Positions 227-19,192 of a stretch of DNA of 22,000 nucleotides are shown here, one piece after another. Location of the stretch: positions 1 through 22,000 of IMG/VR virus record IMGVR_UViG_3300043410_000076; one strand, given 5' to 3'. The notes under the pieces are model-generated. The model saw nothing but the letters and a program-made list of their open reading frames with translations. It searched no databases and had not been told where the DNA came from. Position 1 is the first letter of the stretch. Each line of letters starts with the position of its first letter. The DNA is from a virus. The translations under genes were made by a program, and so were the position numbers.

Positions 227-877
227 TCACGGGAACAGCGCGGACACAAATGAAAGTGTGGCTACGACCGAAGCCGTAGATGGGCGTGTTGGCCCCGTTG
301 AAGCGCTGTAGGTTTGGATAGTTACAGATGCAAGTGTAGTTGACCAATAAATCTGTATGTAATCCCCAGCGTTCATGGATACATAATAGTTCCAGCCAAT
401 AATCTCGTGGGCTTCTTCGCCTGCGGAAGCGCTCTTCCTTGCCGGAATAGATACAAACCCAGTTGACCCCGGGATGTCTGTACCGTTTTGGCGTAGCCAA
501 ATACTAATATCTTGGATTTGGTTGTCTGTATTTTGAAACTGAGCGCTGAACTGCAAGTTATATACGCCAGCATTTTCTACTGTAATTTTGGAGCTATTGA
601 TGCTTACGGCATTGGCAAAATCAGTCGTGTTTAACGTCATCAGTGTGGCGGTGTTAGCCGTAGCCGTCTGGTCTACATAACTTGAAAAAGCCCCATAAGG
701 AAAAGCTAAATACCTACCGCCAGTATTTCCTAGTAATTCAGACAACGCATTTTTTAATTGATTGAAGTACAGACGCAATACATTAGCAAACTGATCTTGA
801 TATCGGCGCTCGTACTGCTCTGTGCCCAACGGCAGGTTGGGAGGCGCAGGATTAATAATGCGATTAGGTGTAGCCAT
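227..877 (-). CDS. Short-tail fibre/virion protein with helical N-terminus and jelly-roll C-terminus
   Basis: 216 residues from the ATG at 877, which overlaps the TGA of the upstream nozzle-like gene by one base (TGATG); the TTG one codon upstream is less likely. Residues about 20-48 look helical (YERRYQDQFANVLRLYF...), followed by a beta-rich region with P-Y-G-A-F, a central Q-F-S-A-Q-F strand, and an end repeating T-R-P-S-T-A-S. This layout matches a family frequent in environmental phages in which the C-terminal half is predicted to be a C1q/TNF-like jelly roll, which would trimerise and contact the host surface. Coupling to the nozzle gene suggests attachment at the tail tip. The family match is from memory; the receptor is unknown. 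Confidence 0.65.
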   Translation of the reverse strand: MATPNRIINPAPPNLPLGTEQYERRYQDQFANVLRLYFNQLKNALSELLGNTGGRYLAFPYGAFSSYVDQTATANTATLMTLNTTDFANAVSINSSKITVENAGVYNLQFSAQFQNTDNQIQDISIWLRQNGTDIPGSTGFVSIPARKSASAGEEAHEIIGWNYYVSMNAGDYIQIYWSTTLASVTIQTYSASTGPTRPSTASVVATLSFVSALFP

Positions 878-2937
878 CAACGCCTGCCATCAGCACGAAT
901 ATCTATACGCGGAGCACCAAGCTGCCAAGCTGTACCAATTTGATTGGAACTAATCTTAAATATCATCTGGCGACCGCGAAGACGGGTGTAAATTTGGCCT
1001 GTGAATTCTTCGGTAATGTAGTACGTACTGCCCTTGGCTACAGGTTGGCTGGCGTCGCTTGTCACGCCTGAGCCTGAGTTAGCCAACCCGTACAACTCCA
1101 TAGTTACTGTTGCGGCATCGCCAGTTGGAGAAGTTGTGGCATTTTCAAAAGTTAAGTCTGGCAACATACGCCATACGAAACCAAAGTTGTGCCCATCACC
1201 AATATCAAACTCAGACGAAGAAATATACGCTTCAATTGGCGCAGTCACAGCGGTAGAGTTATCGTCAATACCACTTTCATGATTAACAATATTATTTAAA
1301 TAAGTAGTAGCAATAGGATACTGGATTAAGCCAGAGTCAAGCCACGAAGTGCGGGCCATAGTGCCGTAGTACCAAGCTTTTTCAAGATAGTTAAACACCA
1401 CGTACTTATCAACAGTAGTTGAATCACCCGAACAATAGAACCACCAAATCTCGTTAAAGCCTTCACTAGTACCGCAAAATACTTGTTCGTTTTGTTCTTG
1501 GTTAAGGTCTTGGAATATATACCTACGCAGGTCGCAGTTAAGCGTCTGTATGCGGCCATCATACATATAGAATTTATCTATACCCATCCAATACACAATA
1601 CCAGAAGCAATAATTGCGGCATTAGGCCCCATGATAGATATGTTGTCACCAAGGAGTTGAGAACCCCACACATAGGGAGGTCCTAAATACTGCAATGAAT
1701 AGACAGACGAATCAGTGAACACTATAACCTCTTGGCGAGTTTGCACTGAAGTTATGATTTTTGACCCATGAGATAAACGAACGCTACCAGCTTGATTGGT
1801 AGCCGAAGGCGTCCAGTTATAAATATTGTCCTGATCAGACCAACGAATAAGCAACGGATCAAGCGTAGCACTGCCGTAGTCATTGCAGCCAAAAGCAATA
1901 ATAAAACGTGATGTATCTGATACTGTAAATGTAGTAACGATAGTAGGCACGTCAACGAGCAAAGACACACTGCCAGAACCAGTAGAAGAAGTGCTAACTA
2001 CATTACCAGCGCTATCTACTAAATTAAATGTCAGCCCATCAACCTGGTAGACATAGTACGTAGTACTAGCAGAAACTCCTGTAGGCAAAGAACCGCCTGA
2101 GAATTGGATAGCTGCGCCTTCTGTAAAAAGCACAGTTGATGTGACCAATGTAGGGTTACCGTTTGTAAATGTTACTGTACCGCCAAGAGTATTAAGTAGA
2201 ACGCCTCGCGTACTAATACCAGCTGCAGCATCCCAATAATATATCCCTGCATTGCGTGGACCGTAAAGAAGATTTTGGCCGTAGTTAATTTGATTCCAAA
2301 TTTGTATTCCGATGGCTGAAGATTGACCATATCCCCATGTACCAAGGCCCCAACCACCAACACCCCAACCAACCAAAGGCTGCTGAATTGAAGGTCCTAC
2401 AGCAATCTGATAAGCAGCGACAACAGCAGAGCCACCATAGTTACCTGCGGCAATAGCGCTATCTGTTGTGATCGTATAAGAGTTAGCATCTATAACGGTG
2501 ATTTGAAACTCTGCGTTAAACGTGGAAGCATACGTCCCAGTAGCGCCGCTGAAAGTAACAAAGTCCCCAGTAGCCCCGCCATGAGCGGTGTCTGTCACAG
2601 TTACCGTTGTTGTGCCGTTACCAGCAAAAGGATTGGTATTAATAGTTGACGATGCGCGAATAGGCGTAATGTCGTAATACGCGCCACCTTGGCAAATGTA
2701 GAACTTTAAATTAGTACCTACGCCAATAAGATTCTGACCAATTAACGTGATCCAATTCCACAACGACCTGCAAATACCTAAGAATGTATTAGCAGATATG
2801 CGTTGCCAGCCCCCAATAGTTTCTGGGTTACCTTGACGGAAGCGTACTTTATCGCACTCGTACCAACCACCCTCAGTGGTGTATCGAGTGTTTTCTCGGT
2901 TGACGCCCGGCTTAAACTGAATCTTCTGTAATGGCAT
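877..2937 (-). CDS. Large tail protein, probable nozzle (P22 gp10-like)
   Basis: 686 residues. The N-terminal block (PGVNRENTRY at 10-19, EGGWYECDKVRFR at 22-34, ETIGGW at 39-44) and the R-S-L-W-N-W segment at 57-62 are hallmarks of a conserved family of large podovirus-type tail proteins thought to resemble the P22 gp10/T7 gp12 nozzle, often annotated as phage stabilisation proteins. Two Thr/Ser/Gly-rich beta segments, about 98-178 and 253-327, look like Ig-like insertions. Between them is a W-G-x-G repeat at 190-202. The C-terminus ends in conserved-looking basic sequence (RIDIRADGRR). It follows the endolysin by 30 bases and overlaps the fibre gene by one base. Nozzle assignment is inference; that it is a tail structural protein is fairly secure. 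Confidence 0.62.
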   Translation of the reverse strand: MPLQKIQFKPGVNRENTRYTTEGGWYECDKVRFRQGNPETIGGWQRISANTFLGICRSLWNWITLIGQNLIGVGTNLKFYICQGGAYYDITPIRASSTINTNPFAGNGTTTVTVTDTAHGGATGDFVTFSGATGTYASTFNAEFQITVIDANSYTITTDSAIAAGNYGGSAVVAAYQIAVGPSIQQPLVGWGVGGWGLGTWGYGQSSAIGIQIWNQINYGQNLLYGPRNAGIYYWDAAAGISTRGVLLNTLGGTVTFTNGNPTLVTSTVLFTEGAAIQFSGGSLPTGVSASTTYYVYQVDGLTFNLVDSAGNVVSTSSTGSGSVSLLVDVPTIVTTFTVSDTSRFIIAFGCNDYGSATLDPLLIRWSDQDNIYNWTPSATNQAGSVRLSHGSKIITSVQTRQEVIVFTDSSVYSLQYLGPPYVWGSQLLGDNISIMGPNAAIIASGIVYWMGIDKFYMYDGRIQTLNCDLRRYIFQDLNQEQNEQVFCGTSEGFNEIWWFYCSGDSTTVDKYVVFNYLEKAWYYGTMARTSWLDSGLIQYPIATTYLNNIVNHESGIDDNSTAVTAPIEAYISSSEFDIGDGHNFGFVWRMLPDLTFENATTSPTGDAATVTMELYGLANSGSGVTSDASQPVAKGSTYYITEEFTGQIYTRLRGRQMIFKISSNQIGTAWQLGAPRIDIRADGRR

Positions 2938-11433: not shown

Positions 11434-11898
11434 TTAAATAACAACCCAGCGTTGCCCAGTTGGAACGGTAACCGTTATTCCAGAAGACACCGTAATAGGC
11501 CCCACAGAAAAACCATTATGCCCACTTGGGAACGTAAAACTTTGGTAAATAGTGGCTTGATTTGTAACAACGCCAGAACTACCGCCTCCAAATGCAGAAC
11601 GCCCGGCGGGGTACGTTACAAACACATCTTTTGTACCAGCAGAGAAGTTCACCAGTGATCCGCTATTGGATGAAGCCAACACCGTGTCGCGGGAAAGCGT
11701 TGTGCCGGAGGATGTGTAAGTGCCAATACCTACTTCCCATTCCGAACCTGTCTGGCCAGCAATCGTGTAGTACGTACTGTTTGTGTTGCCAATAGCGGCA
11801 AAAGACTGATAGCCAGTAGCTGCGCCAAGGAGCGTGACTGCGCCTGTACCTGTCGTAGAGGTGGTTTCTTTTACCCGATCAGCAACAACAAGTGCCAT
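11434..11898 (-). CDS. Tail fibre-associated protein (conserved N-terminal fibre domain)
   Basis: 154 residues; AAAGGAAG precedes the ATG. The first two thirds (D-R-V-K-E-T-T-S-T-T-G-T-G-A-V-T-L-L-G-A, Y-Y-T-I-A-G-Q-T-G-S-E-W-E-V-G-I-G-T-Y, L-S-R-D-T-V-L-A-S-S-N-S-G-S) form a very widespread module of environmental phage fibres, where it often precedes variable receptor-binding parts. Here it ends after a short beta extension (V-T-V-P-T-G-Q-R-W-V-V-I) instead of continuing into a long fibre. It may be a base subunit onto which the glycine-rich protein, encoded nine bases downstream, attaches. The module identity is firm; the assembly role is inference. Confidence 0.72.
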   Translation of the reverse strand: MALVVADRVKETTSTTGTGAVTLLGAATGYQSFAAIGNTNSTYYTIAGQTGSEWEVGIGTYTSSGTTLSRDTVLASSNSGSLVNFSAGTKDVFVTYPAGRSAFGGGSSGVVTNQATIYQSFTFPSGHNGFSVGPITVSSGITVTVPTGQRWVVI

Positions 11899-11908
11899 TC
11901 ATCTTCCT

Positions 11909-13264
11909 TTATACAAGCGTATCAATCAATTCCCAGCCGGATTCTTCCTGTGTGTCTACAGTAGACCAGCTCACGGAATCAGCCGCATTTATCAGCGTCC
12001 AACCAGCAGTCTCCGAAGAATCAATAAGCGACCAGCCAGCAGTATCCGCACTGTCTATATTTTGCCAGTTTGCGTTCTCGCTGTCATCAATTAATGACCA
12101 ATAGCGTAACGCAAAATTACCAACAAAGCCAGAGGCTGCAACGCCTGTCAACGCAATAGTTATACCACTGACTGAAATACTTCCAACACTGCCAGTAGCC
12201 TGTACGCCCGTAGCACCAAAAGACTTGCTTCCATCAATTGAGCCAACTTGACCCTGAGCGGCAACGCCTGATAGGGCTTGCGTATTGCTTGCTGTTACTG
12301 AGCCTACCGCACCCGCCGCAGAAACACCAGATAGTTCTGCTGTGCGGGAGAATACAACATTACCTGTCTGACCGGCGGCCTGAACACCAGTCAGCGCAAC
12401 TGAATGGCTTTGAGTAACCGATCCAACTGAGCCGTTGGCTTGAATACCAGATAAGGCTTGGGAGTGACTTACCCCAACCGTACCAACATTACCTGTTGCA
12501 GAAACGCCGGTAGTTCCAACAACAGAATCAACTGTTACTGAACCTACGGAACCCCTAGCGGATACCCCAGTCAGTGCAATAAGCAAGTCTGGCGTAACAG
12601 TGCCTACAGATCCAACCGCCTGAACTCCAGCAATGCCTGTGTTGGGAGTCTCAAATACATCGCCTACAGCGGCATCAGATAACACCCCTGTAAGCGCAAT
12701 TTCTCTATTGCCAACCGCAACTGAGCCAACTGCACCAGAGGCTGAAACGCCTGTGATGGCAACTTCTTGAATAGTCTCAGCGGTTACAGTGCCAACAGCA
12801 CCATTGGCTTGAACGCCCGTAATTGCAATGTTTCTACTGCCAACCGCTACAGATCCTACAGACCCGCTTGCTTGGTTTCCAGAAATCGCTATTGTGTTTG
12901 TGGCCGCGACAGTGCCGACTTGCCCTGCGGCTTGTACGCCAGTAATGGCTATGTTTCTTGCGCCAACAGCTACAGACCCAACAGATCCGCTGGCCTGAAC
13001 ACCTGTGACTGCTTGAGAATGGTTGACCGCAACTGTGCCAACCCTACCTGTTGCAGAAACCCCTGTTAGAGAAGCCCCTGCGTTAGCCCGTGAGACTGTG
13101 CCAACCGCCCCGGATGCCGATACACCCGAGATGGCAACAGTAATGTTGGCCGTGACTGTACCAACCTGGCCAGACGCTTGAACGCCTGTAAGAGCGCCAG
13201 CATTTGCCGCCCCGCCCGCAAGCGAGGAGTACGGAGCACCGGCAAATGGGGCTATACCGAACAT
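11909..13264 (-). CDS. 451-aa dual-repeat protein: 18 x ~20 aa glycine repeats plus 6 x 11 aa Trp repeats
   Basis: Residues 1-23 (M-F-G-I-A-P-F-A-G-A-P-Y-S-S-L) are a short leader typical of small phage structural proteins. Residues 24-386 hold 18 tandem repeats of 20-22 residues with consensus A-[LI]-[TS]-G-V-[QS]-A-x-G-x-V-G-[TS]-V plus a variable tail. Residues 387-451 are six 11-residue repeats centred on Trp (x-x-W-x-L-I-D-x-S-E-T). The first type would form stacked beta-strands, such as a solenoid or fibre shaft; the second may be a binding or capping module. Its place among fibre genes suggests a fibre or surface-display role. No enzymatic motif. The SD lies upstream of a GC-rich hairpin. 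Structural role probable; function unknown. Confidence 0.78.
   Translation of the reverse strand: MFGIAPFAGAPYSSLAGGAANAGALTGVQASGQVGTVTANITVAISGVSASGAVGTVSRANAGASLTGVSATGRVGTVAVNHSQAVTGVQASGSVGSVAVGARNIAITGVQAAGQVGTVAATNTIAISGNQASGSVGSVAVGSRNIAITGVQANGAVGTVTAETIQEVAITGVSASGAVGSVAVGNREIALTGVLSDAAVGDVFETPNTGIAGVQAVGSVGTVTPDLLIALTGVSARGSVGSVTVDSVVGTTGVSATGNVGTVGVSHSQALSGIQANGSVGSVTQSHSVALTGVQAAGQTGNVVFSRTAELSGVSAAGAVGSVTASNTQALSGVAAQGQVGSIDGSKSFGATGVQATGSVGSISVSGITIALTGVAASGFVGNFALRYWSLIDDSENANWQNIDSADTAGWSLIDSSETAGWTLINAADSVSWSTVDTQEESGWELIDTLV
11912..12106 (-). repeat. Six in-frame 33-bp repeats encoding 11-aa Trp motif
   Basis: The last 65 codons of the 451-residue protein consist of five 11-residue units and one of ten, each with Trp at the third position: Y-W-S-L-I-D-D, N-W-Q-N-I-D-S, G-W-S-L-I-D-S, G-W-T-L-I-N-A, S-W-S-T-V-D-T, G-W-E-L-I-D-T. 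Confidence 0.88.
12107..13195 (-). repeat. Eighteen degenerate in-frame repeats of about 60-66 bp
   Basis: Coding repeats of 20-22 codons each (the last one 16), encoding A-[LI]-[TS]-G-V-[QS]-A-x-G-x-V-G-[TS]-V. Units 4, 6 and 8 share the extra G-x-R-x-I tail (V-G-A-R-N-I, V-G-S-R-N-I, V-G-N-R-E-I), which suggests duplication of pairs of units. The copies have drifted at DNA level. Confidence 0.88.
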
Positions 13265-13271
13265 GGTTAAT

Positions 13272-13297
13272 CAGCGGGGATTACCCCGCCGCTCCTA
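13272..13297 (-). promoter_or_regulatory. Hairpin between the SD and the start codon of the repeat protein
   Basis: On the minus strand, after the stop of the preceding gene, AGGAG (13292-13296) is followed by GCGGGG-TAAT-CCCCGC (13289 to 13274), extendable by a G-U and a C-G pair, then ATTAACC and the ATG at 13264. No T-run follows, so it is not a terminator. With the hairpin folded, SD and ATG would be about seven bases apart; unfolded they are 27 bases apart. Confidence 0.65.
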
Positions 13298-13298
13298 G

Positions 13299-13757
13299 TT
13301 AGGTTGTAGCCAAGCGGAGAAGCGCGGTACTTGTAGTGTTGGAAGGCATTGTCAAGGTGAACGTACCAGCAGTCACAGTCTGTGAACCAAAGGTGTGAAC
13401 ACTAACGGCCTTGTTAGATGCAGATGAGTTGTAAATCAACACTGCGTCAAATGCCGTGGTCAGCGTAACGTTCGTGTACACAATGCTGGCCGATGGCGTC
13501 CAATACGCAACCCCCGCCGTAGACGATGAGTTTGTCGAGGACGGGGAAGTACCATTCGTAACCGTCACACCGCCTGCGGTGTAGTTTGTACCAGTCACTT
13601 CACCAGAAGTGCTGTACGCGGTAGTTGCGGCGTTGTATGTAGCGGTTGCCTCATACAAAGCAGCTTTGAAAGTGTTGCCCGTGCCGGTCGTAAAGTTGTG
13701 CGTAGCTGTCAGAAGCTCACCCATAAACGAGGTGCACATTGCCTGTGTATTTGCCAT
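13299..13757 (-). CDS. Virion structural protein, paralogue B
   Basis: 152 residues; AAGGAAAT precedes the ATG. Residues from about 9 onward match the protein encoded at 13971-14417: T-S-F-M-G-E-L-L-T-A-T-H-N-F against T-S-F-K-V-E-L-L-Q-A-V-H-N-F, T-F-K-A-A-L-Y against T-F-K-V-A-L-Y, G-E-V-T-G-T-N-Y-T-A-G-G-V-T against D-E-V-T-G-T-G-Y-T-A-G-G-N-T, and L-I-Y-N-S-S near the C-terminus. Both are Thr/Ser-rich, beta-type proteins typical of tail or capsid-surface subunits. The two genes flank a 64-residue gene. The role is probably structural; the exact location is unknown. Confidence 0.72.
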   Translation of the reverse strand: MANTQAMCTSFMGELLTATHNFTTGTGNTFKAALYEATATYNAATTAYSTSGEVTGTNYTAGGVTVTNGTSPSSTNSSSTAGVAYWTPSASIVYTNVTLTTAFDAVLIYNSSASNKAVSVHTFGSQTVTAGTFTLTMPSNTTSTALLRLATT

Positions 13758-13766
13758 GATATTTCC

Positions 13767-13961
13767 TTATGCAATAGATGCTGCTTCAGCAAACAGCGCG
13801 GGGGACTGTTTTAGATTGACATGAACTGAACGGTGAACAAGTTCCCCTTCCAGCCAATATTCAACCCAAGTTGTAAATTCGATGTCATTATCGACGGAAC
13901 CTTCTCTTTTTTCAAGGAGAGATTCGTCCATTTCGCCTTTGGTGGTGTTTACAAGTGCCAT
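13767..13961 (-). CDS. Conserved 64-aa phage protein, function unknown
   Basis: 64 residues with a good SD (AAGGAT). The sequence M-A-L-V-N-T-T-K-G-E-M-D-E-S-L-L-E-K-R-E-G-S, then T-T-W-V-E-Y-W-L-E-G-E-L-V-H-R-S-V-H is a small acidic protein that I recall from environmental phages in the same gene position. It contains a probable two-stranded hairpin (F-T-T-W-V-E-Y-W-L and L-V-H-R-S-V-H-V). No membrane helix, signal peptide or metal motif is present. It sits between two paralogous structural genes, so it may bridge or regulate their assembly; this is speculation. Confidence 0.65.
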   Translation of the reverse strand: MALVNTTKGEMDESLLEKREGSVDNDIEFTTWVEYWLEGELVHRSVHVNLKQSPALFAEAASIA

Positions 13962-13970
13962 GAATAATCC

Positions 13971-14417
13971 TTATGCGATTCGTACGATTGCGCTGTTGGC
14001 ATCGGCTGTTGGGAAAACAATCTGGAACGTGTCGTTGGACACTGTTTTATCCGCGCCAAAATCCAGTACAGCAACTGACTTGTTACTCTGGCTTGAGTTG
14101 TAAATCAAAGCCCCACGCGCCGTAAATGACGCGCTTGTCCACGATGTATTGCTAAACGAAATGTAGGCCGTTGGTACACCTACAGAATTAACACCGGAAG
14201 TGGGCGATGTACTAATAGTCAATGTATTACCGCCTGCCGTATACCCAGTACCGGTTACTTCATCGGTCGTAGTGTACGCAGTAGTTGCAGTGCCAATATT
14301 TGCCGCTGCTGTATACAGCGCAACTTTAAAAGTATCAGGCGATGTAGGGCCAAAGTTATGAACCGCTTGAAGCAGCTCAACTTTAAATGACGTGGTTGCT
14401 GTTTGCGCTATTGTCAT
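13971..14417 (-). CDS. Virion structural protein, paralogue A
   Basis: 148 residues, starting two bases after the stop of the adaptor gene. Beta-type, Thr/Ser/Ala-rich. It is a paralogue of the protein at 13299-13757, sharing the order of blocks E-L-L-x-A-x-H-N-F, T-F-K-x-A-L-Y, A-T-T-A-Y, E-V-T-G-T-x-Y-T-A-G-G and L-I-Y-N-S-S. This family is common between adaptor and fibre genes of environmental phages. It may form a tail-collar or fibre-anchor ring. SD is weak (GGT), consistent with coupling to the adaptor gene. Structural nature likely; place in the particle unknown. Confidence 0.72.
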   Translation of the reverse strand: MTIAQTATTSFKVELLQAVHNFGPTSPDTFKVALYTAAANIGTATTAYTTTDEVTGTGYTAGGNTLTISTSPTSGVNSVGVPTAYISFSNTSWTSASFTARGALIYNSSQSNKSVAVLDFGADKTVSNDTFQIVFPTADANSAIVRIA

Positions 14418-14418
14418 A

Positions 14419-15084
14419 TCAAGTTACCGCCTGTCTAAATTGACCAGAACGGTAAGCATCCTGACGTTCCATACCATCGCCCAAACGTTTAGCCAGAGCC
14501 AAGGCTTCCATGTATTTAGCGTTATACAACTGCATCATGTCTTGCTCACCCTTCATGTAGGTGTAGGCCTCAACTAATGAACCATACAGTAATACAGTAT
14601 CAAAGTTGTCACCCAACCAAGTTGTCTCAGCAGTTGTGATGGACTCGGGGTAATAGTAGAAATGCAATTCAACATCATAGTTGGCATCAGGTTTTGGGCC
14701 AATCAAAAACGTTAATTCGTTTGTGATCGTGCTACCAGAAACAGTTGGGCCAAACAACGCATAGTATCGGGGCAGGCCTGTATCATTTGGATTTGGATAG
14801 GCTTGGCGTATGAAGTTAACGTCCTTGTTTAGCAAGTACTCATAGTTGCCATTGCCATCAATCACAGCTAAAGAATACGTTGCTAAATAATCATCGGGTG
14901 CAGACAAGTAAGGTGTAGTGGTGGATACCACGCCTGTCATGTTTTTACGAAGCGATGGAAACTGGACATTGTTGTAAATACGCTGCTCAGCCTGCTGAAC
15001 GAAGACAGGAATCTCCGCCACGAAGTTTGCCTCCGTGTTCTCTGCATACGCTTGGATAGCAGCGCTGAGTTGCGTGTAATTCAT
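14419..15084 (-). CDS. Head-tail adaptor protein (SU10-type phage adaptor)
   Basis: 221 residues. The sequence M-N-Y-T-Q-L-S-A-A-I-Q-A-Y-A-E-N-T-E, then F-V-Q-Q-A-E-Q-R-I-Y at 28-37, L-R-K-N-M-T-G at 45-51, D-V-N-F-I-R-Q-A-Y-P at 88-97, and W-L-G-D-N then L-L-Y-G-S-L-V-E-A-Y-T-Y-M-K-G closely matches the adaptor family of podovirus-like phages. It would form a ring between the portal and the tail nozzle. The mix of an N-terminal helical hairpin, a central beta domain and C-terminal helices fits adaptors such as T7 gp11. Its start overlaps the preceding stop (ATGA). Confidence 0.85.
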   Translation of the reverse strand: MNYTQLSAAIQAYAENTEANFVAEIPVFVQQAEQRIYNNVQFPSLRKNMTGVVSTTTPYLSAPDDYLATYSLAVIDGNGNYEYLLNKDVNFIRQAYPNPNDTGLPRYYALFGPTVSGSTITNELTFLIGPKPDANYDVELHFYYYPESITTAETTWLGDNFDTVLLYGSLVEAYTYMKGEQDMMQLYNAKYMEALALAKRLGDGMERQDAYRSGQFRQAVT

Positions 15085-17890: not shown

Positions 17891-18136
17891 TTAGCAATTC
17901 CAAGCTCTAAGAGATTTATTGATGCGTGAGTTCGGATCTTTTGCCGTCTTCTCGCTTGTCAACTTCTTTTTCATTCCACTCATCCTCGCACAGAAAGAGT
18001 CGCGCCGGGAGCCGCCTTCGGGCTGGGGCGGTTTCAAATTCATGCCTTGCTTTTTCGCGGAGGCCCGTCCCTTGGCATTTAAGCCACCATTCGGGTTCTT
18101 CCCTTCTTTTCTCTGCCATGCGGGTGATTTAGCCAT
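17891..18136 (-). CDS. DUF6321-like small basic protein
   Basis: 81 residues. The start at 18136 overlaps the glycosyltransferase stop by eight bases, so it is probably coupled. Motifs A-W-Q-R-K-E-G-K-N-P-N-G-G-L-N-A-K-G-R-A at 6-25, L-K-P-P-Q-P at 34-39, and R-R-D-S-F-C-A-R-M-S-G-M-K at 44-56, ending in S-L-R-A-W-N-C, match the family I know as DUF6321, common in environmental phages. It is strongly basic, with Cys49 and a C-terminal Cys81. The family has no established function; small basic virion or DNA-associated protein is a guess. Confidence 0.8.
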   Translation of the reverse strand: MAKSPAWQRKEGKNPNGGLNAKGRASAKKQGMNLKPPQPEGGSRRDSFCARMSGMKKKLTSEKTAKDPNSRINKSLRAWNC

Positions 18137-18866
18137 TGGCCACTTTCAATTTGGATTTACGAACCATATCAAGAAGCGGAATTACAACCTCCTCACGGAA
18201 ATTGTTCTCAAATGTATCCGTCCCAACATGGGGCAAACTAATGTCTACGTCAATATAAATTTTATACCCATGCTCCCTTGCACGGTCACAAAATAAATAG
18301 TCTTCGCCAACATATTTTCCATCTTTTAGCGCAAAGTCAAAGATAGATGTAATCTGCTCACCTTTAAACTCGTATGTCCATTCTGGATGGCTCTTGGCCA
18401 TATTCTCGAGGACATGCCTTTGGATCAACATAAAGCCTGTACCAACGCGCTCTACGCGCATCAGTGAGCCATCAAACTCAAGGTCTTTGGCTTCATTGAA
18501 ATACAGATCGGCAAAGAAATAACGATCCTTGGCTCTACGTGGGTAGGCTCCAGCCGTAATATCCTTGCCTGAACTCTGAGCCATCAAACGAAGAATATCG
18601 TCTGGTGTGGCAATAACATCGGAATCGACAAACAGCAGTTCCGTGCAATCTGACTTGAGAAACTCATGCACCAATTGGTTTCTAGCCATGGTGATAATTG
18701 AGCATCCAGACACATCGCCCATATTGACAGATACACCTAACTGCATAGCTTTAGGCATAAGCGCCGCTATGTTGTATGCAGTCTTAATGTTGATCCTGCC
18801 GTCATACGCAGGGATCGCAATGAACAACTTACGCCCTGTTAGAACTGCTTGTCTTGCTTCAGCCAT
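18129..18866 (-). CDS. Glycosyltransferase, GT-A fold, phage-encoded
   Basis: 245 residues. The Rossmann-like start is K-L-F-I-A-I-P-A-Y-D-G at 13-23; I-I-T-M-A-R-N-Q-L-V at 57-66 is a conserved helix; D81-S-D83 (L-L-F-V-D-S-D-V) is the DxD nucleotide-sugar/metal motif; V-G-T-G-F-M-L-I at 141-148 and Y-V-G-E-D-Y at 185-190 fit the acceptor/catalytic region, and L-P-H-V-G at 211-215 gives a late metal-ligand His. This matches GT2-like/ANP1-type phage glycosyltransferases. It would transfer a sugar to DNA, a virion protein or host glycan in the cytoplasm. It overlaps its neighbours by eight bases on each side. Family secure, acceptor unknown. Confidence 0.87.
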   Translation of the reverse strand: MAEARQAVLTGRKLFIAIPAYDGRINIKTAYNIAALMPKAMQLGVSVNMGDVSGCSIITMARNQLVHEFLKSDCTELLFVDSDVIATPDDILRLMAQSSGKDITAGAYPRRAKDRYFFADLYFNEAKDLEFDGSLMRVERVGTGFMLIQRHVLENMAKSHPEWTYEFKGEQITSIFDFALKDGKYVGEDYLFCDRAREHGYKIYIDVDISLPHVGTDTFENNFREEVVIPLLDMVRKSKLKVANG

Positions 18867-19146: not shown

Positions 19147-19160
19147 GATTGAATCTCCTT

Positions 19161-19184
19161 TAAAACAAGGGGGCCGAAGCCCCC
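19161..19184 (-). terminator. Rho-independent terminator after the 165-aa gene, UUCG loop
   Basis: On the minus strand GGGGGC-TTCG-GCCCCC (19184 to 19169) is followed by TTGTTTTA (19168-19161). A six-pair GC stem with the very stable UUCG loop and a T-rich tract is a classic terminator, located just after the stop at 19193 and ending before the SD of the next gene. Confidence 0.85.
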
Positions 19185-19192
19185 GGAGTCAA

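Follow-up and report, generated by a model that had tools for sequence, protein, structure and literature searches.

Positions 11909-13264 (minus strand) of a 22,000-base virus record, IMGVR_UViG_3300043410_000076 (positions 1 to 22,000; hereafter the window), encode a protein made up largely of short glycine-containing repeats. The open reading frame starts with ATG and runs uninterrupted for 451 aa, which divide into three parts:

13196..13264, minus strand: N-terminal peptide MFGIAPFAGAPYSSLAGG.., residues 1-23, the proposed virion-docking peptide
12107..13195, minus strand: 18 glycine-type units (G-units) of 20-22 aa each, residues 24-386
11912..12106, minus strand: C-terminal tail, six 11-aa units W-x-x-[IV]-[DN]-[DN]-x-[QE]-[TS]-[PA]-[GN], residues 387-451

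The G-unit has the core [TS]GVxAxGxVGxV, and cores start at residues 27, 47, 68 and onwards to 374. This core motif occurs 18 times, whereas shuffling the residues of the protein 20,000 times never gave more than one occurrence per shuffle, and its positions are strongly conserved between units (G0 18/18, V1 16/18, A3 17/18, G5 17/18, V7 17/18, G8 18/18, V10 15/18). A sequence-only reading of this DNA had claimed eighteen in-frame units of about 20 residues, and the 18 cores, their 20-22 aa spacing and the shuffles confirm it. The same reading called the repeat "dual", implying a second array that it did not describe; we identify this array as the six tryptophan-initial 11-mers (W units), which span residues 389-449.

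The window protein has no match in Pfam, PHROGs or NCBIfam, and a sequence search of solved structures likewise returned no match. When 17 diverse members of the family were compared with Pfam and PHROG, single weak hits only were obtained, one of them to a minor tail protein family (E 0.002). An hmmsearch hit to an IgA1 protease (7uvk, E 7e-4) was attributed to shared composition. Neither Curlin_rpt nor the YadA_head repeat of Pfam matched at E up to 1; the conserved positions of the G-unit differ from those of Curlin_rpt, and its period is 20 to 22 residues. A literature search for the G-unit motif found none. The earlier statement that the repeat has no established function was correct, the family being named in no library.

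Comparison of the G-units with each other bears on the age of the array. Between units of the window protein, residue identity is 61% while third-codon-position identity is 31%, and two thirds of the identical residues are encoded by different codons. Because third positions are near random between units, a DNA tandem-repeat finder reported nothing at the repeat gene. The dN/dS of the gene, estimated against two 85% identical relatives, is 0.15-0.16. The low third-position identity and the low dN/dS together indicate that the G-unit array is old and constrained, maintained by selection at the protein level. Recent tandem duplication, DNA slippage and phase variation were rejected on the grounds of the near-random third positions.

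A scan of IMG/VR found 109 places that encode relatives, and the best 80 of the 109 were fetched. Three further homologues are present in the annotated phage genomes DSL-LC04, ct7L0027 and HTVC023P (gp68, a diverged member from a cultured pelagiphage), all of them annotated "hypothetical protein". A bacterial genome scan matched the repeat protein in only two MAG contigs, and for this reason we withhold a host assignment. The repeat family is real, widespread and uncatalogued.

Unit number in complete relatives, counted with a profile of the window units and approximate for diverged units, ranges from 6-7 to 44-45. The length differences between near relatives, 41, 61, 61 and 62 aa, are equivalent to two or three units. 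Pairs whose 2-kb upstream flanks are at least 95% identical are equal in length bar one residue, which also disfavors recent duplication or phase variation; at flank identities of 85-90%, unit count differs in 6 of 12 pairs, several being near-duplicate contigs. Unit number changes through whole-unit gain and loss, and the suggestion of the sequence-only reading that copy number varies between relatives is borne out.

The two ends of the protein also vary within the family. An N-terminal form [FL][GS]..[PA]F...P[FY] is found in 37 of 58 distinct complete relatives, five of which also carry WGxGxWG-type motifs; the remaining 21 carry the WGxGxWG-type motifs alone. W units mostly number two to six per relative and are C-terminal in nearly all complete relatives. 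Among the fetched loci, a regular W array is absent from every ORF outside the repeat family.

The repeat gene of the window lies within a run of tail genes, whose landmarks are as follows:

14419..15084, minus strand: SU10-type tail adaptor (PF24175, SU10_adaptor, E 4e-21; PDB 7z47 adaptor, E 2e-5)
13971..14417, minus strand: PHROG 644 paralogue, 148 aa (E 2e-16; 51% identity to the 13299..13757 protein)
13767..13961, minus strand: 64-aa ORF flanked by the PHROG 644 genes; it belongs to the exchanged cassette discussed below
13299..13757, minus strand: PHROG 644 protein, 152 aa (E 1e-13), adjoining the repeat gene upstream
11434..11898, minus strand: short protein resembling tail fibres, 154 aa (C-terminal match to PHROG 5342, tail fiber, E 3e-5)
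877..2937, minus strand: nozzle / tail hub protein (PHROG 3287, E 8e-59), the downstream limit of the fibre interval

The gene order is SU10-type adaptor, PHROG 644 pair, repeat gene, fibre genes and nozzle; downstream of the repeat gene are fibre-like genes and genes for glycine-rich and LamG-like proteins, and then the nozzle gene. The adaptor and PHROG 644 genes are located upstream at 62/62 loci with at least 2.6 kb of upstream DNA, and the nozzle gene is downstream on the same strand in all 12 of the relatives' contigs that include both genes. These counts place the repeat protein in the tail structural module. In 21/21 records searched, the repeat gene occupies the tail-cluster position between adaptor and nozzle. 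Elsewhere in the window, the structural cluster also includes a glycosyltransferase-like protein (18129-18866, minus strand; PHROG 1574, weak Anp1 match), and in the head-gene region a GGGGGC-UUCG-GCCCCC stem followed by TTGTTTT (19147-19192, minus strand) is a likely terminator.

This interval has a counterpart in phage SU10, where the long fibres gp12 and gp13 and the short fibre gp16 are numbered between the adaptor gp11 and the nozzle gp17 (PMC9509320). The SU10 fibres and the repeat protein share the tail-module interval from an SU10-type adaptor to the nozzle, where an elongated structural protein is expected. Descriptions of the SU10 fibres, however, mention no arrays of 20-aa G-units, and the window protein lacks a sequence match to solved structures. 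In HTVC023P, gp68 shows the plan of N-terminus, repeats and W tail seen in the window protein, and downstream of it come a fibre-like gene and a nozzle homologue. This protein shares with the DSL-LC04 and ct7L0027 homologues an N-terminal peptide or WG motif, G-units and tail-gene neighbours; regular W units are present in gp68 and in the DSL-LC04 homologue. The units of these three homologues are diverged, at about 25-43% identity.

The place of the repeat gene among tail genes suggests a tail-fibre shaft, and this is the most likely role of the family in SU10-like and pelagiphage-like podoviruses. We consider it probable that the window protein is a structural virion tail protein of a short-tailed phage, an elongated beta-rich rod that serves as the shaft of either a fibre or a spike attached to the tail. 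Against a tail function, the repeat protein itself matches no Pfam or PHROG tail model, and no recognized receptor-binding domain lies C-terminal to the predicted shaft. We infer that the protein is carried in the virion as a rod-shaped trimer. Docking to the tail would fall to its N-terminal peptide (MFG..PF..PFSSLAG; WGxGxWG in relatives), and the G-units would stack into a shaft, probably as intertwined chains. The C-terminal W units may serve as the distal tip or as an oligomerization nucleus. Unit number would then determine shaft length and the virion interface would stay fixed.

G-units are also found outside the repeat protein. In some relatives a separate protein encoded directly after the nozzle has a C-terminus consisting of exactly two G-units:

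L101, 112-507
L102, 615-1010, minus strand
L103, 65-457
L104, 44-865

The window counterpart of this post-nozzle protein (227-880) lacks G-units and has a weak BclA_C match. Since two G-units terminate a tail-region protein in these relatives, the G-unit is a module of tail proteins. A separate observation concerns the nozzle protein, which contains the sequence WGxGxWGxGxWG in the window (877-2937) and in 11 of 12 relatives (L087-L098). In many relatives the same motif stands in place of the N-terminal peptide of the repeat protein, and the sharing is suggestive.

The sequence-only reading had proposed a beta-solenoid or a fibre shaft. The fibre shaft now leads, on account of the tail-fibre interval between adaptor and nozzle and of the whole-unit variation, while the solenoid draws on structure prediction. 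AlphaFold2 modelling of the window protein as a monomer, from a 17-sequence alignment, gave regular beta structure with two strands per unit, and the best-predicted parts of the middle units had pLDDT values of 82-88; pLDDT was below 50 for the N-terminal 23 and the C-terminal 66 residues. A curli-like reading follows this model: the G region would be a single-chain beta-solenoid with two strands per turn, in which each unit makes one coil, and the product would be a short rod or an edge-stacking filament. Among Foldseek candidates aligned with VIA-align, the curli subunit CsgA (8c50), with its two-strand-per-turn solenoid, ranked first (Z 25.6 over 308 residues), although the rmsd was 8.5 and the match rests on a repeat model to which the bias of AlphaFold2 applies. 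This program is documented to predict false solenoids with high confidence from repeats (PMC11795689); the mean pLDDT of a 7-unit relative was 47 compared with 66 for the window protein. Foldseek found nothing in the PDB better than E 0.96, and its best matches in BFVD were uncharacterized Caudovirales proteins. The window protein further differs from CsgA in lacking a Curlin_rpt match, in its conserved positions and in having no secretion signal apparent on inspection by eye. The post-nozzle proteins that end in two units only are also difficult to reconcile with a single-chain solenoid, as two units could hardly stand alone as one; an intertwined fibre is therefore favored, tentatively, over a single chain, and we regard the latter as unlikely. 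Triple-stranded beta-helix and triple beta-spiral shafts are built from short hydrophobic strands and glycine turns at a fixed period. The G region resembles them in this strand and glycine-turn periodicity, but the window protein has no sequence match to solved structures; the T4 gp5 spike is one example of such a shaft (PMC4576200).

The low confidence of the 7-unit model would suit a flexible, largely disordered spacer whose copy number sets tether length only, as would the composition of the G region, about three quarters of which is A, G, S, T or V. Typical disordered linkers, however, do not combine an almost complete absence of charge with 17% valine, nor would a spacer readily account for strictly periodic V, A and G residues that have been maintained at a dN/dS of 0.15 with near-random third codon positions. 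We consider a spacer very unlikely. Least probable of all is a non-virion protein, for example a host-displayed protein or an assembly factor, located in the tail cluster by chance: HTVC023P-type phages do encode curli-type fibre genes as auxiliary genes, i.e. non-virion fibres (PMC9599517), but the adaptor-nozzle interval is near-invariant in the records searched and no signal peptide is apparent.

The junction between the PHROG 644 and repeat genes contains two further features:

13292..13297, minus strand: Shine-Dalgarno-like UAGGAG, upstream of the stem-loop
13272..13291, minus strand: RNA stem-loop CGGCGGGG-UAAU-CCCCGCUG, located after the PHROG 644 stop codon and before the repeat-gene ATG

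Across 20 relatives, 99.2% of cells in the stem-loop are paired, compared with at most 66% in slid controls, and in 5 of 7 pairs both partners have changed; the z of the stem-loop is -2.45. No other short junction between genes along the tail-gene run has a strong GC stem. An intrinsic terminator was rejected, as no U-tract follows the hairpin. No Shine-Dalgarno-like sequence was seen between the stem-loop and the ATG, and in the MFG form the only such stretch is the one upstream of the stem. WG-type relatives have a different stem, in which a Shine-Dalgarno AGGAGG is paired in the 3' arm. It is plausible that the stem-loop sets translation of the repeat gene relative to PHROG 644. A broader proposal can be made, in which the G-unit would be an undescribed trimeric beta-shaft motif serving as a modular ruler in aquatic podovirus tail proteins, with two interchangeable N-terminal docking peptides, and in which a conserved intercistronic RNA hairpin, located at the ribosome-binding site, would set its dose relative to the PHROG 644 protein; taken as a whole, we hold this to be rather improbable.

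Part of this region has been exchanged between phages. From the 64-aa ORF, across the repeat gene and as far as the beginning of the gene that follows it, the window is mostly 83-99% identical to two relatives (L003 and L004), whereas identity in the flanking DNA drops to about 55-70%, and we conclude that the cassette moved between divergent phages. Exchange of a cassette inside divergent flanks is typical of host-contact genes. Within the cassette, the PHROG 644/repeat gene junction (13175-13324, minus strand) is nearly 100% identical in DNA to the same two relatives and both sides diverge; the junction is perhaps a favored recombination point.

The repeat family is common in the freshwater and marine phages of IMG/VR, including those of pelagiphage type. 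Its fixed neighbourhood offers a handle on PHROG 644, a family of unknown function. If the repeat protein is the tail-fibre shaft proposed here, its relatives would constitute a natural shaft ladder, from 6 to about 45 units on a fixed virion interface, which would allow the role of fibre length in host contact to be asked.
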